DNA of 64,000 nucleotides, taken from NCBI GenBank assembly GCA_951812525.1, contig OX638316.1, forward strand, positions 4,086,506 to 4,150,505. The letters are read 5' to 3'. Every line of letters begins with the position of its first letter. Positions within the stretch are counted from its first letter, which is position 1. The notes beneath the pieces were generated by a model. That model saw nothing but the letters and a program-made list of their open reading frames with translations. It made no database searches and had not been told where the DNA came from. Of this stretch, positions 18,114 to 37,858 are shown in pieces. The DNA comes from an uncultured Poribacteria bacterium. GTDB taxonomy: Bacteria; Poribacteria; WGA-4E; WGA-3G. The translations under genes were made by a program, and so were the position numbers.

Positions 18114-18229
18114 TATGGTGGATTTTGAAAATACATATATGCATTTCAGGCTCTTCTGTAGGAGGGATTTCCGAATCCCGACGTATTCGCGCAGATGCCT
18201 AACGTATACGTAATCTAAAATCTACCATA
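18114..18229. repeat. MITE-like element with TATGGTRGATTTT ends
   Basis: The left end TATGGTGGATTTTGAAAATAC pairs with GTAATCTAAAATCTACCATA at the right end, about 115 bp apart. Inside is the hairpin GGGATTTCCGAATCCC followed by the CGACG block. A right-half copy with the same interior lies at 63119-63196, an element with the same ends at 58553-58677, and a left end at 57754. It ends next to the stop codon of the following Omp85 gene. Confidence 0.6.
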
Positions 18230-21125: not shown

Positions 21126-24122
21126 CTAAATTTCGTCAAGTGTGAAACGTAGCACACCACGACCACGCGTGCCGACATAAAGTGTCCCATCACTGATTGT
21201 AATGGAGGTGATAGGACTTGGAACTTCCGGTGTAATCTGCTGCCATGTGTTAGAGTTCTCTTTCAATTGATACATACGTTGCTCGGTAGCACCATACACC
21301 GTTGTACCTTCTACTGCTAATTGCTCTACAACAATCAATGTTCCTTCAGCATCGACCATGGTGTTCCAGCTTTCACCATCATTTGAATAGGCAACGCCTT
21401 TGTCGGTTGCTATATAAACGGTTGACCCAGCGAAAGCGATTACATTGAAATCAGAAACAGTAAATGGCAGATCCGCTGTGATATCCTTCCAAGTATCCCC
21501 TTCATCGAATGATTGAAAGAGGCGTCCAGTCCGCTTACCTACGTAAAGGGTGCTACCGGACACAGCCACTCTGAAACCGATGGTAGTGAGATCGTTCAAC
21601 TCGTTAAATGAATAAGCATCCTCGCCTTCATCGACCAATCCTGTGTCGTACCATTCAGTCGTTCCGGGTTTCCATCTGAAGAGTTTCTGTCTGGATTCCA
21701 TATAGTAGGTTCCATCACTGACAGCGAAACTTCCGAGATACGATTGAAGGGAATCAGCCATAGTCTTTTCCATAATCTTACTATACGCTTCGTTGAACTT
21801 GTCTGCGTCGAAATGTTCAGGATTGAATCTTTCACCGGTTTCGATGCTTTTCTTGCCCTCCTCTTGAAGCGTATCCAAAAGTGCTAAACTGATTTCTTCA
21901 GACAGCCGCTCATTAAAATTACCATCTCCCAAGTCGGGCATATCTGGCACGCCGGTTAACCGGTTGTCTTCAGCAGATAGACGAAAAATGCGAGGTGTCA
22001 GATTTGTCGAGCCTCTGGCATAAAAAACACCGTTATATCCCATCATGCTCGTGATGTTCCCTGGACTACCCGGAACAGGTGTCCACGACTCGCCACCGTC
22101 AGACGATGCGACAAGTACCGCCCCTATGTTTGCATAGAGGATATTATGTGCATCGACTAAATTCGCAATGGAAGTACTCACCAAGCCAGTGTTAAATTGT
22201 TGCCATGTATCACCGACATCGCTCGTGCGATGAACACCGTCCCGTCCGCCTCTGTAGAAGGTATTTTCGTCTAACATCACAACAACGGGGGGCTTGTCCA
22301 TATCAGATTCGCTTGAATGTAAGGCACTCCAGGTTTCACCGGCATCATTTGAGTAATAGCTGCGTCCACTGTCCAGAACCAATAGATTTTCTTTGAGTGC
22401 CACCAATTTGATGCTGGAAGTTGGCTCAGTTTTTGAATCAATAGGCACACCAAAGGTAAATCCACTGCTTTGTACCGGCAACTCATTTCCAGGATCTATC
22501 GCTTCCCACGAATCACCCAAGTTTGTTGAACGATAAACCGACAATAAGGCTTTACGGGTCGTCATGGCTGACATGAATTGCGCAGTTAATTGATGCTTAA
22601 CCTCTTCCCCTATGGCTACATAGAGTCGGTGTTCAGCACTTGCCAATGCACGGATATTCTCGACTTTATCGCTTACTGGTAGTTGTTTCCAACCTTCCAC
22701 ATTGCGACGATAAAGTCCTGTATCAGTACCTACAAATAAGATGTTTCCAACGGCAGTGAGTGCACGAATTTTTCTGTCAGTTAGGTCACCATCGTTCAGA
22801 GAGGTCCAGGATTTACCAGCATCCACAGAACGGAATACACCATCAACAAGTGCCAAGTAAAGCGCATCACCTGTTGTAAGAATGTCAATCAACTGTCCTT
22901 TTGGACGCGTGCCGAGAACGTTCCATGTATCGCCCCTATCTTCTGAAGCAAGCACTTCTGCATCGGTGACGATGTAAAGGGTATCATCTCCTTCTGTTAT
23001 TTTCCACGCTCCCTTAAAGGATGCGTTGGAATTGATAAGGTTCCATACGCCACCATCATCTGACATTCTATAAAGATCAGCACCTGCACCAGCGTAAAGA
23101 TCTCCATTGGACGCTACGAAGAGTGCGCTGACATGTCCACCTGCGGGTCCCTTTGTTTGTATCCACTGCGGTTTGGGTGTTGAGACTTTCACTTCATCGG
23201 CAGGTAGTGCAGCGAAAAGCAAGGCATCGGGTTTTTGACCGGCACCCGCACTTTTACCCGGTACAGCCGAACTTCCAGCCTGATTTCGCACGTCAGGTTT
23301 CGCTGGAGTGTCTAAGACAAAAAATGCCTCGATAATCTCAACACTCCTTTCGGACGTCGCATTTAAATTGTAGGGTTTCTGAAAACGGGAAAGGTATTGT
23401 GTGCCGATACCAATCAGCAGAAAAATTAAGACGGCAGAGGCAGCAGAGACCACCCACGGTATCATCGGTTTATTTCCAGTGGGTGCAGTAGGACTGATAC
23501 GCGAGACTTCCCGCATGATATTTTCTGTTAGCTGAGCAGGCAGCTGGAAACTGCCGAGGTTTTGCTGAATCATATTTTCCTCCTTCTTCAAACGGTTCCG
23601 CGCGCGGCTGAGCCGGCTTTTGATGGTATTCTGGGATACACCCAGAAACTCGCTGATGGCTTTGATAGTCATCTCCCCGAGGTAATAGAGCGTCATCACT
23701 GTTCGTTCGCTCTCTGGTAGCTTTTGAAGCAGTTTCTTGACGACTTCGCGTCGTGTTTCATCAACCTCGGCTGCTTGTTTTTCAGCCATGTATCTGGAAT
23801 ATGACACCTGAGCCACCTCGTTAGCATCTATAATCTCCAAGGACTGTTCCGGTGGAGGATTTTTTCGGAACCAGTCAGAGCACAAGTTTGCTGCGATGAC
23901 ATACAGCCAACCTGGGAACCGGTTATGGTTTTTCAATGTTCTGAGATTCTGATACGCCTTGAGAAACGTGTCCTGTGCAATCTCTTGTGCGATGTGAAAG
24001 TCGCCGATCTTCCGCCATACAAGCGCATGAACCCCTTTCTGGTATTTATTAACCAATAGCGTGAAAGCGTCTTGATTGCCTTGTAATACCTGTTGAATAA
24101 GTGCGGTATCGTCTTGTCTCAT
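21126..24122 (-). CDS. ECF sigma factor fused to membrane-anchored beta-propeller (copy 1)
   Basis: A 998-residue fusion. Region 2 of a sigma70 ECF factor is at about 17-87 (DTFLKAYQNL, FPGWLYVIAANL) and region 4 at 128-180 (LPESERTVMTLYYLGEMTIK, VSQNTIKSRLSRARNRL). A single membrane helix at about 221-244 should place the remaining 750 residues outside. That part is a beta-propeller with at least seven Asp-box/BNR motifs (SEDRGDTW, SVDAGKSW, SNDAGETW, SSDGGESW, SFDEGDTW). The likely logic is a membrane-held sigma factor with its own sensor; release by proteolysis is inference. Start 24122 is chosen because GGAGG lies 9 bases upstream. An ECF-type promoter precedes it. Confidence 0.88.
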   Translation of the reverse strand: MRQDDTALIQQVLQGNQDAFTLLVNKYQKGVHALVWRKIGDFHIAQEIAQDTFLKAYQNLRTLKNHNRFPGWLYVIAANLCSDWFRKNPPPEQSLEIIDANEVAQVSYSRYMAEKQAAEVDETRREVVKKLLQKLPESERTVMTLYYLGEMTIKAISEFLGVSQNTIKSRLSRARNRLKKEENMIQQNLGSFQLPAQLTENIMREVSRISPTAPTGNKPMIPWVVSAASAVLIFLLIGIGTQYLSRFQKPYNLNATSERSVEIIEAFFVLDTPAKPDVRNQAGSSAVPGKSAGAGQKPDALLFAALPADEVKVSTPKPQWIQTKGPAGGHVSALFVASNGDLYAGAGADLYRMSDDGGVWNLINSNASFKGAWKITEGDDTLYIVTDAEVLASEDRGDTWNVLGTRPKGQLIDILTTGDALYLALVDGVFRSVDAGKSWTSLNDGDLTDRKIRALTAVGNILFVGTDTGLYRRNVEGWKQLPVSDKVENIRALASAEHRLYVAIGEEVKHQLTAQFMSAMTTRKALLSVYRSTNLGDSWEAIDPGNELPVQSSGFTFGVPIDSKTEPTSSIKLVALKENLLVLDSGRSYYSNDAGETWSALHSSESDMDKPPVVVMLDENTFYRGGRDGVHRTSDVGDTWQQFNTGLVSTSIANLVDAHNILYANIGAVLVASSDGGESWTPVPGSPGNITSMMGYNGVFYARGSTNLTPRIFRLSAEDNRLTGVPDMPDLGDGNFNERLSEEISLALLDTLQEEGKKSIETGERFNPEHFDADKFNEAYSKIMEKTMADSLQSYLGSFAVSDGTYYMESRQKLFRWKPGTTEWYDTGLVDEGEDAYSFNELNDLTTIGFRVAVSGSTLYVGKRTGRLFQSFDEGDTWKDITADLPFTVSDFNVIAFAGSTVYIATDKGVAYSNDGESWNTMVDAEGTLIVVEQLAVEGTTVYGATEQRMYQLKENSNTWQQITPEVPSPITSITISDGTLYVGTRGRGVLRFTLDEI

Positions 24123-24163
24123 CACCAACATCCTCCAGAACCGTCCTAAACTTTTAATTAAAG

Positions 24164-24192
24164 TGACGGAATTTAGATGTCAGGAAGTTGCA
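24164..24192 (-). promoter_or_regulatory. ECF-type promoter P1
   Basis: Read on the minus strand: TGCAACT (core GCAAC at 24187-24191), 17 bases, then CGTCA (24164-24168), followed by a TTTAATTAA box. AAC at -35 and CGTC at -10 match the known architecture of ECF-sigma promoters. Three more copies lie at 32077, 32392 and 37638. It is 42 bases upstream of the first sigma/propeller fusion, consistent with autoregulation. Confidence 0.7.
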
Positions 24193-24348
24193 TTATCTTT
24201 GGAAAAAGAGTAATTACCATCGAAAAATTAATGCTATTGGAAGCACCTAAAGGAGAGGAATAGGGCATTTAGAATTTAGAGGCGTGTGAAAAATGACTAT
24301 GTATGTATCGGATTTGTAGGGAAACCCAACCTTTTGCCAAGGTAAGGT

Positions 24349-25347
24349 TTAAAAGTTTTCAATTTTCACGTCTGCCCATGTTATGGTGAGATGGTGCGGT
24401 TGTGGCGAAACCGGCAATGCAAATGCTGGATCGAACCAATCCGCATTGAAGTTATCACCCCGGTGTGTGAGTTGTTCCGACGTACCTCCGCCCAAGGCGA
24501 TTTTGAAAAGTTGTCTGACTTTACGGACCTGCTTTACATAAACGAGTTCATCCCCTTGTGGTGACCAAACAGGGGCAGACGTTTTCGCATCAACAACCTG
24601 TTTTAGCCCACTACCATCCCGATTCACAATGTAGACAGCCAGGGTATCTCCGGCATTTTTGCCTGCTAAGAGATCCTCTACCGGAATAGCATCCAGTTTT
24701 ATCCATGAAAAGGCTATCTGAGTGCTATTGGGTGACCACGCGGGACCAAACATCAGTTTCTCTCCTGGAAGCAGTATATTCTCCTCACTGGTTTGTAGAT
24801 TAATAAATTGAATCCTAGGATTCGCTGCCTTGAGGTTACCCTCAGCAACAAGAGCAAACTCTTCATCGGCAACAAAGGCTATCTCAGATCCATCAGGGGA
24901 CCACGCCGGCCACAAGCCATTCGCAAGTTTCTCCTCCTTTTTTCCATCACTTGGAGCAATGTAGATAGCAAGTTTGTCAAATCGGTGATAAGCCAGCTGT
25001 TTTCCATCAGGCGACCAAGTTGGGTATTCTCTACCGACTAATTTTCGGAATACCTTGTGCACGTTCGTCCCATCTGCCTTCATAAGGTAGAGATCCTTCC
25101 TTCCGTTTCGATCAGAGACAAATAGAATCTGTTCACCTGATGGCGACCAGACAGGATCGTAATCGGAGGCGCGATGTTGGGTTAAGTTCACCTGCTCAGA
25201 CCCATCTGGATTCATAATATAAATTTCGGCATTGCCATCCCGCTTTGATGTAAATACGATTTTGGGAGCTGCCGGTGCTTTTGCCAAAACGGTAGAGAGG
25301 ATTCCAAAAACGAGTAGAGCGTTAATTGCAAAAAACATGAGTTTCAT
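24349..25347 (-). CDS. exported TolB-like (PD40) beta-propeller protein
   Basis: A 332-residue protein with a signal peptide (1-22, ending VLA-K). Repeated PD40/TolB blade motifs follow: [57 protein letters not shown] and [13 protein letters not shown], plus [13 protein letters not shown] typical of TolB-type blades. It ends [15 protein letters not shown], a weaker version of the WG tail (Ala replaces Gly). It is not TolB itself, as no Pal or TolQRA genes are near. It lies between another WG-tail protein and the sigma fusion; a 226-bp gap with promoter P1 separates it from the latter. Confidence 0.82.
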
Positions 25348-25375
25348 ATTACTTTCTCCAAGGAGTATTCTCTAC

Positions 25376-26119
25376 CTAAAACCGCTTTAAATTACCCCAC
25401 ATTATCGCGAGTTTACCTTTAGACCTTACGGCTAACCCGCCCTTGTTTGGAATACCATCGCCGGTGACAGTAATATTATCAAACCGCGCTGTATAATTAG
25501 CGAGACCGAAGCCGACACCGCCCGTCAGGAAGCCTGGAAACCCAAGCCTATCTTGAACAATTTTAGGCAACTGAAATTCCGTAGGTGCCATAACCTGTTT
25601 CTCATTAACCCAGAAGGTGAAAATATTTCCAGATACATCTAACTTCAAATGTGACCACTTATTCAATTTTAGAAGTGGATGATGCGCACCGTCAAGCGGC
25701 GTGAATACTATATCGTGCAAATCACCTGCCACACAATCCATTCGTGTCTCATGAACTGCGGGGTCGTCACCTATTATAACCACTGGGTCATGAACTGTAC
25801 AGTAAACCAACCAAGTCCCCTGCACCCGCACAGCAATTGAGATTTCTCCAATGCCGTGCTTCTTAAGCGGCTTGACATCAAATTCGACAGTATAATTCTC
25901 CCACGTATCATCCCCAGTTGTAAGTAAACGAACAAACGTTTCACGACTTACAGCGTGAAGTTCACCGTCAACTACCTCCCAAAAACCGGAAGCCTGATTC
26001 AACTGGACAAGCTCCTGCCAATCTTCCAAATCTCCGTTATCAAATGTTTCGATAAATATTCCCGCCGAGGCAGAGAAGGATAGGAAAAACAACAGTATTG
26101 TAACGCGTGTGAATTTCAT
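25376..26119 (-). CDS. exported jelly-roll-like protein with WG tail
   Basis: A 247-residue protein with signal peptide MKFTRVTILLFFLSFSASA-G. The body (FIETFDNGDLEDWQ, WEVVDGELHAV, ENYTVEFDVKPLK, VYCTVHDPVV, WSHLKLDVSGNIFTFWVNEKQ, TARFDNITVTG) is like the DUF1080/family-16-type concanavalin jelly roll seen in exported proteins. It ends KGKLAIMWGNLKRF, the shared tail. It is 28 bases upstream of the TolB-like gene on the same strand, and 25 after the ABC-2 permease, so these three probably form an operon. Confidence 0.8.
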   Translation of the reverse strand: MKFTRVTILLFFLSFSASAGIFIETFDNGDLEDWQELVQLNQASGFWEVVDGELHAVSRETFVRLLTTGDDTWENYTVEFDVKPLKKHGIGEISIAVRVQGTWLVYCTVHDPVVIIGDDPAVHETRMDCVAGDLHDIVFTPLDGAHHPLLKLNKWSHLKLDVSGNIFTFWVNEKQVMAPTEFQLPKIVQDRLGFPGFLTGGVGFGLANYTARFDNITVTGDGIPNKGGLAVRSKGKLAIMWGNLKRF

Positions 26120-26144
26120 TGGAAACGCCTTTTTATCATTCGGA

Positions 26145-27581
26145 TTAAATATCGGTACGGAAGAACTTCAGAAACGCCACGGCCGTAAACGCCAATGCGA
26201 ACAGACAGAGCAAGAAGACATCTGTTGCAGAGCGGCGGAGTGTCTCCGACAAGGTAGATTCTGTCAAGTTGGGTGGCGGCGGAATTTTGTCTGCTTCTGA
26301 TTCTTCAGGATTATTCATCCGAGCTGCGAATTGCATCATCTGTGCCAGCATATCGTCCGAAATCTCGCTGAAATACACATCATCCAGCTGATTGTAGTAC
26401 CTTTCACCGGTTTGAAAGTAGAGTTCTCTTTTCAACTTGCCCGTTTGCGTTAAATTCATAGCGGAATAGATGAGAGAGGATGTTGGGGCAATTCGGGAAA
26501 GCGTCTCACCGACTTGCTCTTGACGTTTCTTTTCGCGTTGATATTCCTTGTCAATCTTGTCCACTTGATCCTGGAACTCCTGTCGAATCTGCTCTTCAAT
26601 CGGTTTTTTGAGTTCATCCAATTTTGTTTGTGTCTCTGGGTCGTTTATGCTAATAGCAATAGAACTCCCCATAGTTTCACCCATTTTTTTCCAAATCCTT
26701 TCTTCTTTATCTTTCGTCAGATTATTCCGAAGTGTCGTCTTCTCCATATAAACCGACTGTTCTGTTCGAGTGGGTGCGACGAGTTTAGCAACCACAAACG
26801 CTCCGCGTGGCGCAATCAGCACTGCAAACACCCAAAAGGTAAAAGCGACAATCAGCGCAGTCTTCACACTATCGAGATAGGTTGAAATGAACACGCCTAT
26901 CGCAAAAAACACCGCAATATATAGCAACGAGACAACCGTAAGAGCCAACACTGGCAGCGCAATATTGAATTCACCTAACGGAAATCCCTGCCAAACGAGT
27001 AAGAGTAGCCCCAAGAGGAAAGACACCAAAAACGGAATAACAAATACCGTGTATCCACCAATCAACTTGCTCCACAAGAACACATCTCGCGGAAGCGAAT
27101 TCGATAGGTTTATCCGAAGCGTTCCTGCTTCTCTCTCTCCGGCAACCGCATCAAACGTGAAGAGAAGTGCCAGCAGACTGAATACAGTTCCGACAATAAA
27201 CAGGAAATCAAGATTTCCGAGTGCATAGGCAACGGAGGCCTGCGCAAGTCCTGTTGAACCTTGTCGAACACCGTTACGTGTCATGCCAAGATAGGTCGGC
27301 AACGCCTCCTCTAAACCGTTTGCGAAGACGCTTAAAGGTGTCGGCTTGAGGAAAAGCTTGGATACTTCTACATTTGGATCCTGTGCACTCGGCGGATTTT
27401 CCTTCGCTTCTGCCTGTGTGCGTTTCACCGATTCCTGATAATCAACAAGGTTCTGGTTATACCTACGATAATTGATAGAAAGGGTCAGCGGGATGAGCAA
27501 AACACACATTACCAATAGTGCTACAAACCTGACGCTGAGAATGTGATGCATAATCTCTTTCTGAATTAGTGTCATTAACAT
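26145..27581 (-). CDS. ABC-2 type permease (DUF3526/GldF-like)
   Basis: A 478-residue membrane protein: one N-terminal helix (about 17-36), a large extracytoplasmic loop, then helices around 120-265 including FTFDAVAGEREAGTLRINLSNSLPRDVFLWSKLIGGY, the signature of ABC-2 permeases with DUF3526-like loops. A second large polar segment (about 275-440) precedes a final helix. GGAG lies 8 bases before the ATG. No ATPase gene is adjacent, so its energising partner must be encoded elsewhere or be shared. The cargo is unknown. Confidence 0.8.
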   Translation of the reverse strand: MLMTLIQKEIMHHILSVRFVALLVMCVLLIPLTLSINYRRYNQNLVDYQESVKRTQAEAKENPPSAQDPNVEVSKLFLKPTPLSVFANGLEEALPTYLGMTRNGVRQGSTGLAQASVAYALGNLDFLFIVGTVFSLLALLFTFDAVAGEREAGTLRINLSNSLPRDVFLWSKLIGGYTVFVIPFLVSFLLGLLLLVWQGFPLGEFNIALPVLALTVVSLLYIAVFFAIGVFISTYLDSVKTALIVAFTFWVFAVLIAPRGAFVVAKLVAPTRTEQSVYMEKTTLRNNLTKDKEERIWKKMGETMGSSIAISINDPETQTKLDELKKPIEEQIRQEFQDQVDKIDKEYQREKKRQEQVGETLSRIAPTSSLIYSAMNLTQTGKLKRELYFQTGERYYNQLDDVYFSEISDDMLAQMMQFAARMNNPEESEADKIPPPPNLTESTLSETLRRSATDVFLLCLFALAFTAVAFLKFFRTDI

Positions 27582-27652
27582 GGTAATTTCTCCTGTGTAT
27601 TTTATGCGATGAACTGTTAAGTCTTTTTAAAAATCAGTTGCTGCGTTATTTA

Positions 27653-28921
27653 TTAAGGCGACAGTAGCGCAGACAGCTGCCGGTGAACGTTTTGCCCTTC
27701 TTGGGTCTGGAAAAATTCTTCTCCGAGTTTTGCTTGAAGTTGTGCGAGTAGCTGTTCTTCAATAGTATCACCCACTTTAACAAACACTTGTTTGAATATA
27801 TCCATACCCATTGGTGTGTCGAGTATGCCTTTTCCGAGTTGCGCTTCAAGCTGAGAGACGACATCTTTCTCTATGACGCTAAGTATTTTTGGCACCAATT
27901 TATTGAGGATTAATTCTTCGGTTGCCTGTTTTAGCTGCATTCTACCCTCATGCGTCTTGAGGAACGCTTCCCCGTGTTGTGCGCGTAGATCTTGCACAAA
28001 ATCACTCAGCAAGGACATCTCCGTCTTATTGATTGTGTAGATGCCTCTTTGCGGTCCGTTTCGATAAAGTTTCCCACTGAGGCTTAGGTTGAGGTGATGG
28101 TGTTCGCATCGCACGATGGGGGTCATTCCACCTTCGTTCGTCCATAGCATTTCTTGATCTGCTTTCTCGGAGGGTCGCACCTCATAAAGATAACTGCACG
28201 GTAGCGCGGGGTCTACTCCTCCTTCGGTGAGAACTCCGGGCTTACCTGCTGTCGTATCTGCCGGACAGACAAGCAGCTTCTCATCCAAGTATTGTGGTGA
28301 AAGATCGGAAATCCATTGTGGATCAGCGTCTGCATTAGAAGCCCGATAGCTCTCACGTGCGAGTTTAATTTGCCGCAAATTTTCTCTGCAGATCTCAATC
28401 CCTACGGAATCCTCAACAAATTCTTGCTCTGAAATAGAAGCGAGTTCATAAGGATAGGCATCTGTTAAGAGAGAACGGTTTAGACGTACTAACGCTTCTC
28501 CGTCTTGTGGGTTTTGGGCGATGAGTGTCTGCGTCTGTTCGCTGAGTTGAATATCGGTAAACAGTTCTGCATCGTAGAGGGAGCCCATTTCAAGCAGCCG
28601 ATTGAGATCTGAAAGGAGCGTCTTCTGTAGTTCAAGGGACGGGCTGCTTGCCCCATCGTATCCGATTAATAGCCACTGTGTATCCTCGGATAACTGTTCG
28701 GCGATAGATTCGGATATCGCAGCGCGTGTGTCTTGAAATTTCACTGCCAAACTGCCTGGATCTGTTATCGCATCCATATCAAAGAGAAGTTGATGTGTAC
28801 CAGCGTGAAGATGCGGTTGGAAGCCTGAGACTGTCAATAAAGTTGTCAGTAGAAGTGTTATCGTTTTGACCAGTAGATTCATTCGACAGTAAGTCTTGAA
28901 TTTTAACATTATGTTACTCAT
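27653..28921 (-). CDS. exported hypothetical protein with pilin-like Cys module
   Basis: A 422-residue protein with an N-terminal hydrophobic signal (about 15-35). The middle segment CRENLRQIKLARESYRA, SDLSPQYLDEKLLVCPAD resembles the C-rich globular part of type II pseudopilin-like proteins in Planctomycetes/Poribacteria, including the L-x-C-P-A end. The C-terminal third holds repeated motifs of the form EGxxxxKQxxEExxLxKLVPKILSxIE and GEEFFQTQEGQNVHRQL, likely helical. I cannot assign a function. It is 71 bases before the ABC-2 permease on the same strand and could head that operon. Confidence 0.7.
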   Translation of the reverse strand: MSNIMLKFKTYCRMNLLVKTITLLLTTLLTVSGFQPHLHAGTHQLLFDMDAITDPGSLAVKFQDTRAAISESIAEQLSEDTQWLLIGYDGASSPSLELQKTLLSDLNRLLEMGSLYDAELFTDIQLSEQTQTLIAQNPQDGEALVRLNRSLLTDAYPYELASISEQEFVEDSVGIEICRENLRQIKLARESYRASNADADPQWISDLSPQYLDEKLLVCPADTTAGKPGVLTEGGVDPALPCSYLYEVRPSEKADQEMLWTNEGGMTPIVRCEHHHLNLSLSGKLYRNGPQRGIYTINKTEMSLLSDFVQDLRAQHGEAFLKTHEGRMQLKQATEELILNKLVPKILSVIEKDVVSQLEAQLGKGILDTPMGMDIFKQVFVKVGDTIEEQLLAQLQAKLGEEFFQTQEGQNVHRQLSALLSP

Positions 28922-29025
28922 TTTTAAATCTCCTTGATTGTTTGTATATTTCAGATTTTTTTTGAGGATTAGCCTGATTTGAATAATAAGGAACCTTCAC
29001 TTACATTTCATACTACTGAATCCAC

Positions 29026-32000
29026 CTAACGCGATTCATCAAGTGTGAAACGTAGCACACCGTTGCTAACAGTTCCGACATAAAGCACATTCCTATCAAC
29101 AGCAATAGAGGTAACAGGGATAGGAATTTCCGGCGTAACCTGTTGCCACATACCAGGTCCGTCTTTTAATTCATAGACGCGTTGCTGGTTTACCCCATAC
29201 ACCGTTGTGCCGTCAACAGTTACTCTTTCAATTACGAGCGGCGTGCCTTCCGCATCGGTTGTCGCGTGCCAGTAGGTTCCGTCGCTTGAGTATGCGACAC
29301 CTTTATCGGTCACAACGTAGACGGTTGACCCAGCAAAGACGATTGCGTTGAAAGACCCAAAAGCAAAGGGGAGATCCATGGTGACATCGTTCCAAGTGCC
29401 TCCTTCATCAAAGGATTGAAAAAGGTGTCCATTCAGTTTACCGGCGTAGACGGTTCTCCCTGAAACAGCTAGTGTAAGATGAATGGCAGAAGAATCCTTA
29501 AGTCTATTTATAGAATAATTGGGAGTGCCTTCATCTGTGAGCCCTGTGTCGTGCCATTCAGTCATGCCCGGTTTCCATCTGAAGAGTCTCTGTTCATACT
29601 CCATATAGTAAGTATCACCACTGACAGCAAACCCTCCGAAAAACGAGGTTATAAGATTAGGTAGGCTTTCCTCTATAATCCTACCGTAATCTTCACTGAA
29701 CGTATCCAGATTGATATCTTCAGGTTTAAGTTGCGTTGGTTCCGCAAGGTTTTTCTCGTCCGCGTCTTGCGCATTCGCCAAAAGCGTACTTTCCATCCTT
29801 TCACCTATTAGCGCACCATAGTCTGGCACCTCCAAAACCGGCATTCCGGGGATAGGGATTAATCCCTTCTCCTCAGCAGATAACTGGAAAAGTTGAGGCG
29901 ACAATTCTCTGATACTTCTGGCATAGATAGTGTTGTTGAATTTCGCAATCCACGTTAGGTTTTCAGAGTTACCCGGAACCGGTTTCCACGATTCACCACC
30001 ATCAGATGAGGTAACAAGTTTCCGCGTTACACGAGCGTAGAGCGCATTATGTGTAGCAATCACATTTAGCACATCGGTTTTCACCAAACCCGCGTTAAAC
30101 GGATGCCACGTTTTGCTGGCATCGGTCGTGCGGTAAATTCCTGACTGTTCGCTCCTGTAAAAAGTATCGGCATCCGAGAATACAAGGGCTGAAACATTTT
30201 CTAAATTGGAAAGGTCTGCATCTGAAGTAACCCATGTCTCACCAGCATCATTTGAGTAATAATTATCACCATCGTCTAAGACTAAAAGGTTTTCTTGCGA
30301 CGCTATGATCCTGGCACCAGGGGTTGGTTGTATTTCGACAGTGCTAGTAGCGGTAGTTGTAGCCTGAATTTTCCACGCACTTTCCTCCGTAGAATTAGTA
30401 GGTTTAACTGGATCTAATGCCTGCCATGAATCTCCTAAATCCAATGATCGATAAAGCGATATTGATTCCTTATGTGTTGTCTGTATTGAGATGATTACCG
30501 AAATCGTTTGACGCTTAGTCTCCGGTCCTACGGCTACATAGAGTCGGTGTCCAGCACTCGCTAATGCTCGGATATTCCGGTCTTCACCTACCGGTAATTG
30601 CTCCCAACCGTCCGAACTGCGGCGATAGAGTCCAGAATCCGTTCCGACAAAAACTGTATTTTCAATAGCCGTGATTGCACGAACCTTTCGATCCGTCAAA
30701 TCCGGATCGTTCAATGATGTCCACGATTTCCCGGCATCTACAGAGAGGAACACACCATCAACAAGCCCTAAATAAAATCCCTGATCCGTTATGGCTGTGC
30801 CTATTAACTCTCCCTCTGGACGCATTCCGAGGGCATTCCAAGTCTCACCCCTATCTTCGGAAGCATGCACTTCTGTCCCGGAGATGACGTAAAGCGTATC
30901 ACCGTGTTCTGTCATTTCCCACGAATCCTTAAAGGGTGTATTGGAAGTAATCCGATTCCACACACGTCTATCGTCGGAGAGTCTATAGAGATCATTGCCT
31001 GATTCGGCGTAAAGATCTCCGTTAGCTGCTGCGAACAGGTTCTGCACACCGCCGCCTTCAGGCCCCTTGGTTTGGGTCCACTGTGGTTTTGGGGTCGAGA
31101 TCTCTGGTGTGTCAACTGGGATTGTGGTAAAGAGCGATTCGTCGGGTTTTTGACCGGCACCCGCACTTTTACCAGGTGTAACAGAGCTTCCCACTTGCGT
31201 CCGGATCGCCGGTTTAGCCGGAGAGTCGTATACAAAAACTGCATCAATAATTTCGACCGTCGGTTCACCGATGGCGTCCAGACTGTAGGGTTTCTGGAAG
31301 CGGGAGAGGTATTGTGTACCGACACCTATCAGCAGGAAAACCAAGACGGCAGAAACAGCAGAAAGTGCCAAAGGAGCTATCGGTTTACTCACAGGCGTTG
31401 GGAAAGGGGTCAGATGCGACACTTCCCGCATGATGTTCTCTGCTAACTGATCGGGAAGCTGGAAGCTGCCTAGATTTTCTCGAAGTACATCCTCTTCTTT
31501 TCTTAAACGGTTGCGAGCGCGGTTGAGCCGACTTTTGACGGTATTCTGGGATACGCCGACAAACTCACTGATGGCTTTGATCGTCATTTCGCCAAGGTAA
31601 TGGAGCATCATCACTGTTCGTTCACTTTCTGGCAATTTCTTGAGCAGTTTCTTGACGACCTCGCGACGCGTTTCATCGGCGTCGGCTTCCTGTTTTTCAG
31701 CCAAATATTTAGAATATGACACCTTGTCCACCTCATAAGTATTATCAACATCTAAGGATTCCATCGGCAAGCGATTCCTTCGGAGCCAGTCGAGACATAA
31801 GTTTGACGCAATGACATACAGCCACCCTGGGAATTGGTTGACGTTTTTCAATGTTCCGAGTTTCTGATACGCTTTGAGAAACGTGTCCTGTGTAATCTCT
31901 TGTGCGACGTGAAAATCCCCGATCTTCCGCCACGCCAGCGTGTGAACGCCTTTCTGATATTTCTTAACCAAGGGGCTGAATGCGTCTTGGTCTCCTTGTA

Positions 32001-32037
32001 GTATTCGCTGGATGAGTTGAGCATCGTTTAGTTCCAT
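29026..32037 (-). CDS. ECF sigma factor fused to membrane-anchored beta-propeller (copy 2)
   Basis: A 1003-residue paralog of the fusion at 21126. Sigma region 2 (DTFLKAYQKLGTLKN, FPGWLYVIASNLCLDWLRR) and region 4 (LPESERTVMMLHYLGEMTIK, VSQNTVKSRLNRARNRL) are nearly the same as in copy 1, so the two may recognise similar promoters. The membrane helix is at about 222-245. The propeller (SEDRGETW, SVDAGKSW, SLDLGDSW, SNDAGETW, SSDGGESW, SFDEGGTW) is more diverged, as expected if the two sense different signals. GGAGG lies 8 bases upstream of the ATG. An ECF-type promoter is 40 bases upstream. Confidence 0.88.
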   Translation of the reverse strand: MELNDAQLIQRILQGDQDAFSPLVKKYQKGVHTLAWRKIGDFHVAQEITQDTFLKAYQKLGTLKNVNQFPGWLYVIASNLCLDWLRRNRLPMESLDVDNTYEVDKVSYSKYLAEKQEADADETRREVVKKLLKKLPESERTVMMLHYLGEMTIKAISEFVGVSQNTVKSRLNRARNRLRKEEDVLRENLGSFQLPDQLAENIMREVSHLTPFPTPVSKPIAPLALSAVSAVLVFLLIGVGTQYLSRFQKPYSLDAIGEPTVEIIDAVFVYDSPAKPAIRTQVGSSVTPGKSAGAGQKPDESLFTTIPVDTPEISTPKPQWTQTKGPEGGGVQNLFAAANGDLYAESGNDLYRLSDDRRVWNRITSNTPFKDSWEMTEHGDTLYVISGTEVHASEDRGETWNALGMRPEGELIGTAITDQGFYLGLVDGVFLSVDAGKSWTSLNDPDLTDRKVRAITAIENTVFVGTDSGLYRRSSDGWEQLPVGEDRNIRALASAGHRLYVAVGPETKRQTISVIISIQTTHKESISLYRSLDLGDSWQALDPVKPTNSTEESAWKIQATTTATSTVEIQPTPGARIIASQENLLVLDDGDNYYSNDAGETWVTSDADLSNLENVSALVFSDADTFYRSEQSGIYRTTDASKTWHPFNAGLVKTDVLNVIATHNALYARVTRKLVTSSDGGESWKPVPGNSENLTWIAKFNNTIYARSIRELSPQLFQLSAEEKGLIPIPGMPVLEVPDYGALIGERMESTLLANAQDADEKNLAEPTQLKPEDINLDTFSEDYGRIIEESLPNLITSFFGGFAVSGDTYYMEYEQRLFRWKPGMTEWHDTGLTDEGTPNYSINRLKDSSAIHLTLAVSGRTVYAGKLNGHLFQSFDEGGTWNDVTMDLPFAFGSFNAIVFAGSTVYVVTDKGVAYSSDGTYWHATTDAEGTPLVIERVTVDGTTVYGVNQQRVYELKDGPGMWQQVTPEIPIPVTSIAVDRNVLYVGTVSNGVLRFTLDESR

Positions 32038-32076
32038 TCAAGCTTCCTCCAGAATTCTCAGATCCGTTGATTGAAG

Positions 32077-32104
32077 CGACATCATCTAAGTATCGAAGTG
32101 TTCC
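32077..32104 (-). promoter_or_regulatory. ECF-type promoter P2
   Basis: Minus strand: GGAAC (32100-32104), 18 bases counted core to core (16 from GGAACAC), then TGTCG (32077-32081), then CTTCAATCAA. The -35 is the best match of the four to the classic ECF GGAAC. The downstream CAATCAA box is shared with P3 and P4. It lies 40 bases upstream of the second sigma/propeller gene. Confidence 0.65.
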
Positions 32105-32108
32105 TTTT

Positions 32109-32312
32109 TTAATCTATTTCCTTCAGTGGACTTCCCCAAAAATGTGTTGAGATAATTAGATTCCGCTGCATTTCTCCAATCACAAATTGACGAATAGACC
32201 CGTCCGTGCCCTTCTCAGGTTTAGATATAGGTTCGGTATTACCGAAAGCAAGGTAACCGATGCCAAAGAGTAACAAACATATCAGGAGCAGGTTAATCAT
32301 TAAAAAACGCAC
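32109..32312 (-). CDS. small membrane protein ending in FWGSPLK
   Basis: A 67-residue protein starting with GTG, with AAAGGAG 7 bases upstream. Residues 1-23 form one membrane helix (MINLLLICLLLFGIGYLAFG); the rest is short and polar and ends STHFWGSPLKEID. The WG and LK recall the tail of the exported WG proteins, with one extra residue between, so it may be a minimal or degenerate member. An ECF-type promoter lies 80 bases upstream, which supports it as a real gene of the sigma regulon. Function unknown. Confidence 0.6.
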   Translation of the reverse strand: MRFLMINLLLICLLLFGIGYLAFGNTEPISKPEKGTDGSIRQFVIGEMQRNLIISTHFWGSPLKEID

Positions 32313-32391
32313 GGTTTTCTCCTTTAAATTCGATAGTTCCGTTCAACTTGTGAATAGCAATTTAGATAAAATTAACATCCATTGATTGAGG

Positions 32392-32419
32392 TGACGTAAC
32401 TTAGGTGTCAAAAGGTTGC
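32392..32419 (-). promoter_or_regulatory. ECF-type promoter P3
   Basis: Minus strand: TGCAACC (core at 32415-32419), 17 bases, CGTCA (32392-32396), then CCTCAATCAA. It is nearly identical to P1 and P4 over 45 bases. It lies 80 bases upstream of the small membrane gene at 32109-32312. Confidence 0.7.
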
Positions 32420-32542
32420 ATTATTTAAAATAAAAACCTCGCGACCGATATTGCTACTGGATGCGGTGGATACTGATACGGATAAACAAGAGGTAAGATA
32501 ATTAGAGAAGTCCGTAACGCTTAATATAGGATTGGGGATTAA

Positions 32543-33796
32543 TCACTCACTTCTCAGTGCTTCAATGGGTGAGATTTGCGAAGCACTTACGGCGGGATAG
32601 AGCCCAAAGACGACACCGATAAAAGCTGCAATACTAACGGAAATTGCCATCCATTGCGGTGAGATCACAACGGGCCAGTGCGGAATCACCTGAACGATTT
32701 TGACGGCGATGTAGGAACAGCCATAACCGATACCGATGCCGAGTCCGATGCCCAATAAGCCGCCGATACTGCACATCACAACCGCCTCAATCAGAAACTG
32801 CAAAAAAATGTCTCGCCGTTTCGCTCCAATGGCGCGACGGATGCCAATCTCACGAGTCCGTTGGTTCACTGAAACGAGCATCATGTTCATAATACCGACG
32901 CTCCCGACGAACAATGAGAATCCAGCAATACTGCTAAGCATGATTTTTATAATGCGACTGATTTTATCAAGTTCTTCTACGGCTTCAGTATGAAAACTAA
33001 TATCAAAAAACTCGTCTTGGTTGCGATGTCGCTTTCTTAAAACGGCTTTTACTTCTTCCGCCGCTTTCTTAATAGCATCTACATTGACCGCTCTGACATT
33101 GAGATAATTGACATAGCGTGTTCCTTTAAACCTGTCTTGCGCGGTCGTCAAGGGGATGAACACGATGTCGTCCCAACTAAAGCCGTATTGAAGGCTTGTG
33201 CCCCGTTTCGCCATTATGCCTAATATGCGAAAACGGTTGGGTCTTCCACCTTGAAGTGAGAGCTTGATTTCTTGACCGATAGGACTCTGATCTCCATAGA
33301 GTTCCGCTGCGACTTCTGTGCCGAGGACACAGACTTTGCTCCGGTTGTTGAATTCATCCTCGGAAAAAAAACGTCCTTGTTGAATTTGCCACTTCATTCC
33401 AGTTGGGAAGTAAGAATTGACCCCGTCATATTCCGTCCATTTCGTTGCACCATCTTCAGCTTGCGCGAGGATTTCATTAGAAACACTCGCTGTCACCGAT
33501 TCAACAGAAGGACATTCGGCTTCAATTGCCAAGACATCTTCATACTTCAGGTGCTCGCCACTGCGATTCGGAAACACGCGGTCGCCGCGCCAGATCCACG
33601 GATTCCGCCGCACGGTAAACTGACCGCCATACTTTTCAAACTCTTTCAGGACGATAATTTTCGCTCCATCGCCGATAGCAAGCATTGCGAGGACAGCAGC
33701 AACACCGATAATGATGCCGAGCATTGTGAGTGCCGAACGCAGTTTTTCCTGCAGTATGACAGAGATTCCTGTTGAGAATCCCTCATAGAGTTTCAT
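32543..33796 (-). CDS. MacB/FtsX-type ABC transporter permease
   Basis: A 417-residue permease. The N-terminal helix (ALTMLGIIIGVAAVLAMLAIGDGA) is followed by a MacB-like periplasmic domain (SNEILAQAEDGATKWTEYDG, VCVLGTEVAAELYG) and the three C-terminal FtsX helices, including GIMNMMLVSVNQRTREIGIRRAIGAKRRDIFLQFLIEAV. MacB-type proteins use mechanotransmission to move substrates across the periplasm. No separate MacB-type ATPase lies beside it; the adjacent ABC genes are complete exporters. The start at 33796 avoids overlap with the upstream exporter gene and has GGGAG upstream. Confidence 0.85.
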   Translation of the reverse strand: MKLYEGFSTGISVILQEKLRSALTMLGIIIGVAAVLAMLAIGDGAKIIVLKEFEKYGGQFTVRRNPWIWRGDRVFPNRSGEHLKYEDVLAIEAECPSVESVTASVSNEILAQAEDGATKWTEYDGVNSYFPTGMKWQIQQGRFFSEDEFNNRSKVCVLGTEVAAELYGDQSPIGQEIKLSLQGGRPNRFRILGIMAKRGTSLQYGFSWDDIVFIPLTTAQDRFKGTRYVNYLNVRAVNVDAIKKAAEEVKAVLRKRHRNQDEFFDISFHTEAVEELDKISRIIKIMLSSIAGFSLFVGSVGIMNMMLVSVNQRTREIGIRRAIGAKRRDIFLQFLIEAVVMCSIGGLLGIGLGIGIGYGCSYIAVKIVQVIPHWPVVISPQWMAISVSIAAFIGVVFGLYPAVSASQISPIEALRSE

Positions 33797-33822
33797 TGCT
33801 CTGTTTCTCCCTGCAATGCATG

Positions 33823-35664
33823 TTAAACATACCACTGTGCCTGCGCTCTGAAGAACCGCGCATAGAGTCCATTTTTTGCTAATAATGTATCATGATCCCC
33901 GTCCTCGACAATCGTCCCGTTATCAAGGACAATGATACGATCACAAGTTCGGACAGAAGAGAGTCTGTGTGAGATTAACACCGACGTGCGTCCGGCACTC
34001 CGTTCAATAAACCGTTCATAGACGGCTTGCTCGGCTAAGGGATCAAGTGCGGCAGTCGGTTCATCAAGCACAACCAACCACGGGGTTTCCCGCATGAAGC
34101 TTCGGGCTGTTGCGAGCCGTTGCCACTCACCACCGGATAGGTCGCGCCCACCGAAAGTAGGACCGAGGACTGTCTCGTACCCCTCCGCCAGTCCATCAAC
34201 GACTGAAGCTGCGCCACCGGCAATAGATGCCGTTTCCATGCGATCGGGATGTTCCAAGTCGCCGAAGATAATATTCTCGCGTGCAGTGAGGTGGTACTGC
34301 GTAAAGTCTTGGAAGACGGCACTACAATACATCAACCATTCTCGACGATTTTCCTGGGTGAGTGGAACATCCCCTACACGAATTACGCCTGCGTGTGGAC
34401 GGTAAAGCCCTAACAGCAAACGCGCCAGTGTGGTTTTCCCTGCCCCGTTGGGTCCGACGAGTGCGACGCGCTCGCCTTTATTCAATGTCAAGCTTACATG
34501 GCTCAGCACAGGTTCTTGGGAATTAGGATACGAGAACGAAACGTTTTCTATCGCAATGTCTTGAACCGTTCTATTTTCATCTAATTCATTTATATTAGTG
34601 TCCGTCGAGTCAGTGTCCTCCTGAACCGTTGCATCGGATTTGCTGTCCAAAAACTGATACAGATCCCCGAACAACGGACGCATCACATCAACCATCCCCT
34701 GAAATCGACCGGCGATTTCGTTCCAGATACCATCTAATTGAACCAGAGCAGCGGCAGCAGCAATATAAGTACCAACAGTCAAATCACCACGAAAGACCTC
34801 GAACAATAAAAGGATAAGCGAACCGGCATACAACAACCCGCGGGTGATGTCGAGCGAGAGACAGACAGAAAATTTACGTCGTCTGATTCCCATTTGTCCG
34901 TCTATCAACGCTTGCCCTAACTTGTGCCAACGGTCTATCCATAAGTCCCGAGCTTGGTATAATCGCACCTCTTTACCAGTACCACGGTCAGTCAGCGTTC
35001 CTTCTAACGCATCTTGCTCTCGTCGTTGCGGTGTCTGCTCAACATCAAAATCGTAAAGATCTGCCGAGAATCGCGAATCACTCCACCAAGACGCGAGACC
35101 CGTTAAAGCTGGCAGCAGTGCCAACAACGGATGGTACCGCCAGAGCACGATCCCAAGAGTCGCAACACTGATGAATTGTTGAAGACTGTCAACGAAATAC
35201 CAGAGGATTTCCTGAAGGGCAAGCCCGGATACCCCACGCGCCCGTCCCAGTGAGTTTTGAAATTCGCCCTTCTGTAATTCAACGAGTTCAGTTGTATCGA
35301 CTTTCCGAGCAATACCCTCGTTAATCCAGATTTCGATGTTTTCGCCTAAGTGGATATACAACGGTTCTCGGAGTAAATCAACAGCGGCACTAAGAATCCG
35401 TAAACCTAGCAACCCGACGAGCCAAGGCAGAACGCTCCGCCACCAGTCAGCGTCGCCTATCGCAGCCGTGATAGCATTGACGAGATGCTCTGTCACGAAG
35501 AATTGGCAAGCCGGGACAACACCGAGCGATAAAGTGAGAAGCATCATGCCCAAGACAGCGAGTGGACCGCTCTGCCATATAATAGCCAGCGTTCGGATAT
35601 AAGCGAGAAAACTCTCCTTAGCCGCCGATCCCCATGTTTTAGATTTTTCTTCTGCGTTTCGCAT
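33823..35664 (-). CDS. ABC exporter, fused permease-ATPase (half 2)
   Basis: A 613-residue ABC exporter half: six membrane helices in the first 330 residues, then an ATPase with Walker A GPNGAGKTTLARLL, signature LSGGEWQRLATAR, Walker B WLVVLDEPTAALDP and the His switch ISHRLSS. It follows the similar 613-residue exporter gene by 15 bases, so the two probably form a heterodimer. Substrate unknown; lipids, peptides and drugs are all possible for this class. Transcription probably starts at P4 (37638). Confidence 0.9.
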   Translation of the reverse strand: MRNAEEKSKTWGSAAKESFLAYIRTLAIIWQSGPLAVLGMMLLTLSLGVVPACQFFVTEHLVNAITAAIGDADWWRSVLPWLVGLLGLRILSAAVDLLREPLYIHLGENIEIWINEGIARKVDTTELVELQKGEFQNSLGRARGVSGLALQEILWYFVDSLQQFISVATLGIVLWRYHPLLALLPALTGLASWWSDSRFSADLYDFDVEQTPQRREQDALEGTLTDRGTGKEVRLYQARDLWIDRWHKLGQALIDGQMGIRRRKFSVCLSLDITRGLLYAGSLILLLFEVFRGDLTVGTYIAAAAALVQLDGIWNEIAGRFQGMVDVMRPLFGDLYQFLDSKSDATVQEDTDSTDTNINELDENRTVQDIAIENVSFSYPNSQEPVLSHVSLTLNKGERVALVGPNGAGKTTLARLLLGLYRPHAGVIRVGDVPLTQENRREWLMYCSAVFQDFTQYHLTARENIIFGDLEHPDRMETASIAGGAASVVDGLAEGYETVLGPTFGGRDLSGGEWQRLATARSFMRETPWLVVLDEPTAALDPLAEQAVYERFIERSAGRTSVLISHRLSSVRTCDRIIVLDNGTIVEDGDHDTLLAKNGLYARFFRAQAQWYV

Positions 35665-35679
35665 TGGAGACCTATCCTC

Positions 35680-37521
35680 CTACTGATACCAATGTGCCTG
35701 TGCCCTGAAAAATTGGGCGTAGAGCCCATCTCTGGCAAGCAGGGCATCGTGCGTGCCATCCTCAACAATTTTACCCGCATCTAATACCAAGATACGGTCT
35801 GCGAGACGTGCCGATCCGATACGGTGTGAAATCAGGAACGTCATCCGTCCGGCTGCGAGTTGAACAAAACGTTGGTAAAGCTCAACTTCGGCTTGCGGAT
35901 CCAAGGCGGCGGTCGGTTCGTCAAGCACCAGTACTTGCGGATTTCGGACCAAAGCCCGTGCGAGCGCAATCTTTTGCCATTCACCGCCAGATAACTCGAC
36001 ACCTGTGCCTTCTTCACCGAGTGATGGATCCAGAAATGTATCTAAACCGAGGGGAAAGGTTTGAAACCGATCCTCAAGCCCCACTCCATTGATAACACCG
36101 CGAAGTGCTTCGTCGTCGATGTGGAAGTTCGGAGGACCCGGGTTCAATTCTTCTCGCACAGGCCTACGGAACCGTGCGAAATCTTGAAAGACTGCGGCGC
36201 AGTTCTGAGCAATCTGTTCGGGTGCGACTGCAGCGACCTGTGTACCATCATAGCGGACAGTCCCCTCATCGGGTTGGTACAAACCGAGTAACAATTTAAT
36301 GAGCGTCGATTTACCCGCACCGTTGACACCGACGATACTGACGATCTCACCCGGACTGACATGAAAATTTATGTCCCGTAATACATCTTCGGCACTCTCT
36401 GAGTATCGGAACCGCAGATTGCGGACTTCTAATCCGTCCTGTAGGGGTTGTGGAAACGTCTCGGTTCCTGACTCGCTCTGATCGGTTTTCGCCCGTTCAA
36501 GGAAGGCGTGCAGATCTTGCATCAACGGCAAATCTACCAGTACATCTTGGACGGCACTGAGCAAACTCTCAAGATTATTTTGAAAGGTCGCTGCTGCACC
36601 GATGAGGACGACATAATCTCCGAGCGTTAGTTGTCCCTCCACAATCCGAGCCGCAAGAATAAAAATTGCTATTGAATAGGCAAGCACTTCGGCGATAGTG
36701 GTGCCGATGGAGGCTCTCGCTTCTACCCAAGACTTCCCTAACGATTCTTTACGCCATTTTTGGTGGTCGGCTTGCCAGCGTCCCAAAAGACGATCATAAA
36801 GTCCATAGAGTCGGACTTCCTGCCCAGATGATGAACCGAGCAATAAACTCAGCATGTAAGCCATCATACGACGGATAGGTGTCGCATCGTAATCGTGGAT
36901 GTACCCGCTCTCGGCTGACCTAACCTTGAGCCAAGCAGAAGGTATTGCAGGTAAGACCACGACGAGAACCAGCAGCGGATCAGCGATCCACAGCAGGACG
37001 CCATACCCAACAAGCGTTACACAGAGTTGTCCGATCTCTGTGAGGAACCGCAGCATATTGGTCATCCGATGGTCGAGTGCCTGTCGCGATCGCTGTATCA
37101 AATCATAAGTCTGCGGTTGATCAAAAAGCGCAAAATTGATGTGTGTTGCGGCTTCGATCAAGGCGCGCTGTTGGTGGAGCCTAATGCGGTTCTGCATCTT
37201 CCATCGCAGGTAGCTATCATAAGTACCCGTTACATTCCTGAGAATCGCCAGAAGGGCTAATGCAATCACCCACGGTGCTGCGGTTCGTAAACTCGGTTCC
37301 GTTTCGTCGGCGAGAATCGCCGCAATGAGATTCACGAGTCCACGACTTGCCCAGAGCGTGCCAACAGGAATGCACCCATATATGAGTGTTATGATTGCTT
37401 GCATAATCGCGCCGAACGGACTGACATGCCATGCAACGAAGAAAAACCTGCGGAGCGTCTTCATTGCAGACGGGCGCGACGCTGATGCTGTATTGGGTGC
37501 GTGCCTATTTTCGGAAGCCAT
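35680..37521 (-). CDS. ABC exporter, fused permease-ATPase (half 1)
   Basis: A 613-residue ABC exporter half with six N-terminal helices and an ATPase: Walker A GVNGAGKSTLIKLL, signature LSGGEWQKIALARAL, Walker B VLVLDEPTAALDP, switch His in ISHRIGSA. Both nucleotide-binding sites of the pair keep the catalytic Glu, so neither is an obviously degenerate site. First gene of a minus-strand operon: exporter, exporter, MacB-type permease. An ECF-type promoter lies about 115 bases upstream, which ties export to the sigma/propeller circuit. Confidence 0.9.
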   Translation of the reverse strand: MASENRHAPNTASASRPSAMKTLRRFFFVAWHVSPFGAIMQAIITLIYGCIPVGTLWASRGLVNLIAAILADETEPSLRTAAPWVIALALLAILRNVTGTYDSYLRWKMQNRIRLHQQRALIEAATHINFALFDQPQTYDLIQRSRQALDHRMTNMLRFLTEIGQLCVTLVGYGVLLWIADPLLVLVVVLPAIPSAWLKVRSAESGYIHDYDATPIRRMMAYMLSLLLGSSSGQEVRLYGLYDRLLGRWQADHQKWRKESLGKSWVEARASIGTTIAEVLAYSIAIFILAARIVEGQLTLGDYVVLIGAAATFQNNLESLLSAVQDVLVDLPLMQDLHAFLERAKTDQSESGTETFPQPLQDGLEVRNLRFRYSESAEDVLRDINFHVSPGEIVSIVGVNGAGKSTLIKLLLGLYQPDEGTVRYDGTQVAAVAPEQIAQNCAAVFQDFARFRRPVREELNPGPPNFHIDDEALRGVINGVGLEDRFQTFPLGLDTFLDPSLGEEGTGVELSGGEWQKIALARALVRNPQVLVLDEPTAALDPQAEVELYQRFVQLAAGRMTFLISHRIGSARLADRILVLDAGKIVEDGTHDALLARDGLYAQFFRAQAHWYQ

Positions 37522-37858
37522 TGATGTTTGTCCTCGTTTTCATCTTCAGGCACTCAAGCCTTCTTTTTTTTACATACGAACAACTTTAATCAATCTGTAA
37601 GTAAAAACTTCACTAAATTTAAACGCTTTGATTGAAGTGACGTAACTTCGTGTCATAAAGTGGCATTATTTCGAGAACAGGTATCGCGATTCGGAGATCG
37701 CTCCTACAGAAGAAAAATTCCGAGAACACAATTGTGATTTTCTTTTGTACTTCTTAAAAATATGTTATACTTTAGTATACAGACTTTTGACACGGCTTGC
37801 ATGCGAAATCTTGCTATACAAAAGTTAGAACCGTCAAAGGTTCAATTGGGAGGCTAAC
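37522..37858. other. divergent intergenic region with ECF promoter and hairpin repeat
   Basis: Between the minus-strand exporter operon and the plus-strand PhyH gene. It carries ECF promoter P4 (37638-37664), a copy of the GCGATT-loop-AATCGC-type hairpin repeat followed by CTCCTACAGAA (37685-37712), and an AT-rich stretch with TTGTAC and TATACT near 37745-37775 that could serve the PhyH gene (15-base spacing, weak). Confidence 0.5.
37638..37664 (-). promoter_or_regulatory. ECF-type promoter P4
   Basis: Minus strand: TGCCACT (core at 37660-37664; GCCAC instead of GCAAC), 16 bases, CGTCA (37638-37642), then CTTCAATCAA. Apart from the -35 change and a one-base shorter spacer it matches P1 and P3. 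The target is the ABC exporter operon, with a leader of about 110 bases. Confidence 0.62.

Follow-up and report, generated by a model that had tools for sequence, protein, structure and literature searches.

ECF sigma factors generally control their own gene (PMC3426412). Their promoters carry AAC and CGTC elements, and in Tt-RpoE1 a DxxR motif reads the -12G of CGTC (PMC3397946). Membrane-fused ECF factors, of which IutY is one, are released by proteolysis (PMC8999054). Only a few groups are known to have ECF factors with a fused outside sensor, and a regulon has been defined for hardly any of these factors.

Here we describe a locus from an uncultured Poribacteria bacterium that encodes two such fusions, SIGP1 and SIGP2. 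Compared by description, ECF57 of Singulisphaera, which has a WD40-like C-terminal extension, likewise joins an ECF sigma to C-terminal propeller-type repeats, and the text of PMC8999054 consulted here describes no regulon for it. The fusions described here belong to a different phylum and have one transmembrane (TM) helix and a BNR/sortilin, GH74-like double propeller. In IutY (ECF243) and the ECF48, ECF52 and ECF53 groups, too, one chain comprises the sigma, a TM helix and an outside sensory part, and IutY is activated by proteolysis (PMC8999054). In contrast, no zinc-finger anti-sigma part was detected in the Poribacteria fusions, which carry a large outside propeller and occur as many paralogs per genome.

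TolB folds are propellers. Tt-RpoE1, which is paired with the anti-sigma Tt-TolB and reads tGTTAC-N16-CGTC, is self-controlled (PMC3397946), as the sequence suggests for the fusions here; however, Tt-RpoE1 and Tt-TolB are two separate genes and the spacer is 16, whereas the Poribacteria proteins are single fused chains and their spacers are 17-18. The sigma-E regulon of Streptomyces coelicolor likewise has AAC-N17/18-CGTC before envelope genes and is conserved across the genus (PMC6767563), but sigma-E is separate and soluble, and its spacers are G+C-rich and not conserved as they are here. Our literature search found no papers on Poribacteria ECF factors.

Results

The analyzed window is a stretch of 64,000 nucleotides (positions 4086506-4150505 of a single 5.06 Mb contig), and the relatives used for comparison are all Candidatus Poribacteria. 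A preliminary description had placed four near-identical ECF-type promoters on its minus strand, and direct reading finds all of them (Table 1). The -35 and -10 elements are TGCAAC (24192-24187) and CGTC (24168-24165) in site A, AGGAAC (32105-32100) and TGTC (32081-32078) in site D, TGCAAC (32420-32415) and CGTC (32396-32393) in site B, and TGCCAC (37665-37660) and CGTC (37642-37639) in site C. Measured from AAC (CAC in C) to CGTC (TGTC in D), the spacer is 18 nt in A, D and B and 17 nt in C, rather than the 16-17 bases originally given. All four therefore have the AAC-like -35, 16-18 nt spacer and CGTC-like -10 of an ECF-type promoter, and, judged by sequence, they are best read as ECF-sigma promoters with -35 TGCAAC, 17-18 nt and -10 CGTC. 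The term near-identical is apt for A, B and C (A and B share 79% identity over 43 nt) but not for D, which is clearly degenerate. The genes expected downstream, namely both sigma/propeller fusions, a small membrane gene and an ABC exporter operon, are all in place.

Table 1. Promoter-like sites and genes of the locus (positions within the window)
Feature	Positions	Strand	Description
SIGP1	21126..24131	-	1001 aa; ECF sigma regions 2 and 4, one TM helix near residue 221, extracytoplasmic BNR/sortilin-type propeller (Pfam, hydropathy)
Site A	24154..24196	-	type 2 ECF-like promoter ATAATGCAACTTCCTGACATCTAAATTCCGTCACTTTAATTAA, upstream of SIGP1
ABC-2 type permease	26145..27581	-	conserved in locus
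422-aa protein	27653..28921	-	N-terminal hydrophobic segment; after SIGP2 in nearly all relatives' loci
SIGP2	29026..32037	-	1003 aa; ECF sigma, TM 224-244, tandem propeller
Site D	32067..32102	-	degenerate type 1 promoter, GGAAC...TGTCGCTTCAATCAA, immediately upstream of SIGP2
smORF	32109..32312	-	67 aa, one N-terminal TM; between B and SIGP2; first 24 residues conserved in relatives
Site B	32382..32426	-	type 1 promoter AAATAATGCAACCTTTTGACACCTAAGTTACGTCACCTCAATCAA, upstream of smORF and SIGP2
MacB-like permease	32543..33835	-	downstream of site C
ABC exporter half-transporter b	33823..35664	-	downstream of site C
ABC exporter half-transporter a	35680..37521	-	MsbA/type-I-secretion-like
Site C	37628..37671	-	type 1 promoter, 17-nt spacer, upstream of ABC exporter operon

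The window was scored with a sequence-only model trained on 61 sites from other Poribacteria genomes, with the window itself left out. Its top four matches are B (55.6 bits, E = 3e-16), A (36.4 bits, 3e-10), C (21.2 bits, 1.7e-5) and D (10.1 bits, 0.052), values that are partly circular because the relatives' sites were gathered by a consensus drawn up with the window and the relatives both in view; positional counts given below are free of this circularity. Genome-wide, B is the top match, A has E = 2.3e-8, and the five highest-ranking matches comprise B, A and C together with sites at 1665727, which precedes a gene for a secreted PD40 protein, and 1406708, which precedes a lipoprotein-like gene. 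Further matches lie before a MacB-like permease and other exported proteins. The identical 45-mer of site B also precedes SIGP2 in the related locus L098. Site D is weak by itself genome-wide, but its score of 16.9 among upstream-sized pieces exceeds the null maximum of 12.0 (99th percentile 2.6), and it stands at the same distance from the SIGP2 start codon as the relatives' sites.

Two other ways of describing the sites were discarded. The strict window-derived pattern AAC-N4-TGACA-N3-AA-N2-T-N-CGTCA, with 3 mismatches, performed no better genome-wide (45 matches) than its reversed control (51), the TGACA stretch not being a constant part of the motif. An apparent inverted repeat, TGAC-N11-GTCA, had suggested a palindromic operator, which was dropped because the repeat is not conserved and relatives carry TGAAA.

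SIGP1 and SIGP2 have regions 2 and 4 only, as ECF sigmas do, and match TIGR02937 (sigma70-ECF) at 91.2 and 87.7 bits, respectively, against a cut-off of 42.9, as well as Pfam Sigma70_r2 and r4_2. Sigma, TM helix and outside domain are present in one chain. Hydropathy peaks near residue 216-221, and the predicted helix 224-244 is of low confidence. The AlphaFold model (mean pLDDT 66) shows this helix, with the propeller part fairly confident and the sigma part poor. In Foldseek comparisons the propeller part resembles GH74 xyloglucanases and the periplasmic propellers of sensors such as BT4663 and BT4673, although these are enzymes or two-component sensors with only 10-15% identity to the fusions. 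Region 2.4 of SIGP2 contains DWLR, an example of the DxxR motif, which we count in favor of a reading of the -12G of CGTC like that of Tt-RpoE1.

Both strands of 42 loci of other Poribacteria encoding SIGP2 relatives (717 kb) were scanned at a threshold of 28, which gave 90 sites in 32 of the loci. All 90 are on the strand of the sigma genes, none lies inside a recognized gene of the 42 loci, and 76 are less than 1 kb upstream of a sigma/propeller ORF. The reversed consensus found no site in the same 717 kb, its best score being 26. Nearly half of the sites (43 of 90) fall 60-80 nt upstream of a sigma/propeller start codon; this is the arrangement of a self-controlled ECF factor, with a promoter of its own type directly upstream of the sigma gene and conserved across species. 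In 61 aligned sites, columns T7, C9, A10, C12, G32, T33 and C34 are invariant. These make up the GTC of the -10 and most of the TGCAAC of the -35; some of the spacer and some of the box after the -10 are less strongly conserved. Gene order is also largely kept: ADH, kinase, oxidoreductase, PhyH, (ABC genes), SIGP2, 422-aa protein, ABC-2 permease, SIGP1 and Omp85/PA14 genes. The 422-aa protein has no Pfam or NCBIfam match.

In some related loci, two sites ca. 100-112 nt apart precede one gene (L104 9448/9551; L110 5327/5439, 7349/7451 and 9526/9629; L113 1963/2067; L120 8403/8505; L127 8671/8773), as if promoter segments had been duplicated in tandem.

Rather than the single near-identical set first described, the sites before fusion genes come in two flavors, type 1 (TAAGTTACGTCACTTnAnTCAA) and type 2 (TAAAATCnGTCACTTAAATTAA). 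Within the window, the 32.1, 32.4 and 37.6 kb sites are type 1 and the 24.2 kb site is type 2. On the sigma-domain tree, type 2 needs 3 changes versus 16.7 when flavors are shuffled, and 0 of 500 shuffles were as low; SIGP1 falls in a type 2 clade and SIGP2 among the type 1 genes. The classes differ most at residues 89 (R versus P/A/S, beside the DWLR of region 2.4), 133 and 164 (Q164/P164, region 4.2). Because the two flavors track two sigma clades, A on the one hand and B, C and D on the other probably answer first to different sigmas. The match of flavor and clade fits co-evolution of sigma and promoter, and linked inheritance of a gene with its adjacent promoter could give the same picture; that B and C, upstream of non-sigma genes, are type 1 mildly favors a promoter code.

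The (T)CAATCAA-like box noted downstream of the -10 is exact after B and C, with one mismatch after D and two after A, and GTCACNTCAATCAA with up to two mismatches occurs at no further place in the window. The box differs with sigma flavor, TCAATCAA versus TTAAATTAA, and is expected to cover the transcription start point. Conservation of the box thus stands, whereas the additional binding factor that had been suggested for it is unneeded, since the box varies with sigma clade and overlaps the expected start. A preference at the start region would explain it; a second factor is possible but improbable.

Site C differs from the others in its distribution. In the two nearest orthologous loci, L098 and L099, the interval from PhyH to the first ABC gene lacks the segment that carries it (roughly 150 nt or more), so the link between C and the exporter is lineage-specific; the site was either gained here or lost in those two loci. 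Sites also precede other exporter genes in several species, and the ABC genes found here downstream of C lie inside the sigma locus in L122 and L129, such that the functional link is kept by position even without C. The C segment also contains one copy of a dispersed 24-mer, GTAGGAGCGATCTCCGAATCGCGA, found in the window at 18158, 37684, 47979, 61352 and 61418 with up to 3 mismatches, where none is expected by chance.

With the outside-built model and a cut-off of E 0.01 or better, strong sites were present in all 18 genomes of the genus (5 in this genome and 2-17 in each of the 17 others) and in none of 12 genomes of other genera. The sigma/propeller fusions follow a similar pattern, with 7-27 strong matches per genome within the genus and none or one outside it. 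This genome has ca. 17-18 genes of the fusion sigma family; among 17 examined, nine have a class site above the null 99th percentile and eight have no site above the null level. A looser pattern, TATGCAMCYTTT-N8-AA-N3-GYGTCWNTAA, gave 19 matches in this genome and 0 for its reversed control. The next gene encodes a protein with an N-terminal hydrophobic segment in 13 cases (12 of them 56-240 nt away), a sigma factor in three (two of them fusions) and neither in the remaining three. The sites in the window are therefore a sub-type of a genome-wide ECF promoter class, given the 19 matches and the nine family genes with a site, and the looser motif marks a putative wider envelope regulon, probably shared by paralogous sigmas.

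Sites outside the main locus were located in two complete genomes and one draft. They stand before genes for fusion sigmas and STAS proteins, for a MacB-like permease, and for a lipoprotein together with an ABC ATPase. A gene for a 925-aa secreted protein has a site upstream both in this genome and in other species. The non-random genome distribution anticipated in the preliminary description is thus borne out by matches upstream of sigma, exporter and secreted-protein genes and by the 19 versus 0 result. Its suggestion that one or both fusions control themselves and export functions also draws support from the sequences, but such control would not be confined to these two sigmas, in view of the size of the family, at least nine members of which have a site, and of the 19-promoter class.

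Elsewhere in this genome (C1:1664001-1679936, L075) lies a second cluster that looks like a decayed version of the window locus, with PD40/KDH-like genes, fusion sigma genes and a sigma fragment (1671201).

Twenty-four DNA variants preserve the first 24 residues of the smORF (MRFLMINLLLICLLLFGIGYLAFG), and the smORF of several relatives ends right after this segment. A role as dedicated anti-sigma was rejected, as the same residues form the N-terminal anchor of a thioredoxin-fold protein in L192 and L193; the smORF may therefore be a remnant or leader. In several relatives a 113-aa STAS protein (anti-sigma antagonist superfamily) is encoded between a site and the fusion sigma gene (L097 16885-17226, L105 7537-7878, L117 12823-13164, L128 4632-4973); in L102 it is upstream of SIGP2. 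Four close STAS copies (63-73% identity) elsewhere in this genome have no class site upstream.

Discussion

We consider it likely, from the sequence comparisons, that the four sites are ECF promoters through which membrane-anchored sigma/propeller fusions control themselves and an exporter operon, in a positive loop and with a preference for promoter flavor. Site A would drive SIGP1 and site B the smORF and SIGP2, with D as a second, weaker promoter directly upstream of SIGP2, while C would drive the ABC exporter operon. In each fusion, a cytoplasmic ECF sigma is connected by one predicted TM helix to an extracytoplasmic GH74-like double propeller, which would sense a ligand of the envelope or the outside and, as a same-chain stand-in for the usual anti-sigma, hold the sigma at the membrane until such a ligand or a stress is perceived. 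We infer that a signal, or proteolysis near the membrane, would release the sigma half to bind RNA polymerase and then these sites; proteolytic release is borrowed by analogy from IutY/ECF52-type factors. The freed sigma would activate its own gene along with export and secreted-protein genes, which would close the positive loop. Paralogous fusions would read closely related promoters, SIGP2 preferring type 1 and SIGP1 type 2.

An assignment of A to one sigma and B, C and D to another would be mistaken if the locus were a single regulon, with both fusions reading all four sites without preference and the flavors representing neutral drift inherited with the gene. The -35 and GTC core is nearly or fully invariant in the 61 sites, and some promoters are common to sigma M, W and X of B. 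subtilis (PMC6767563), as such a regulon would have it. We nevertheless regard it as unlikely: the flavors are consistently distinct at several positions within the spacer and beyond it, the difference goes with residues beside region 2.4 and in region 4.2, and the non-sigma sites B and C are both type 1. It is more doubtful still, and in our view quite improbable, that the reader is one other soluble ECF sigma and the fusions are its targets. The genome offers 39 sigma70_r2 matches for that role, and the gene of one candidate, a 205-aa sigma at 3851605, itself has a class site (18.7). Against this, the motif and the fusion family are both concentrated in the genus, site flavor tracks the fusion clade, and the upstream spacing of the site from each fusion gene is constant across species.

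The conservation of the box beyond core ECF needs could also mean that it is the operator of a further regulator, or that the sites belong to a dispersed mobile element, as might be suspected from the 24-mer repeat in the C segment, the lack of that segment in L098 and L099, and the closely spaced site pairs of some loci. Such an origin seems very improbable to us, because a box without a promoter was not found in the window, the box varies with flavor and overlaps the expected start, and all 90 related sites are oriented alike with respect to the sigma genes, with many of them at a fixed distance.

Control by the fusions themselves thus remains our preferred reading, and the occurrence of one promoter type before fusion sigmas and before exporter and secreted-protein genes points to a genus-wide self-amplifying envelope response. 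More tentatively, this Poribacteria genus may possess a large set of one-chain transmembrane sigmas, each with a matched promoter flavor, that would convert outside signals into separate but overlapping envelope and export programs without a separate anti-sigma or two-component step. For an uncultured phylum of sponge symbionts, sequence here yields the promoter code, its position, its targets and its spread over a genus, and the paired sigma domains and promoters constitute a test set for how paralogous sigmas divide promoters among themselves. The ligands of the propellers would tell what Poribacteria sense at their surface.
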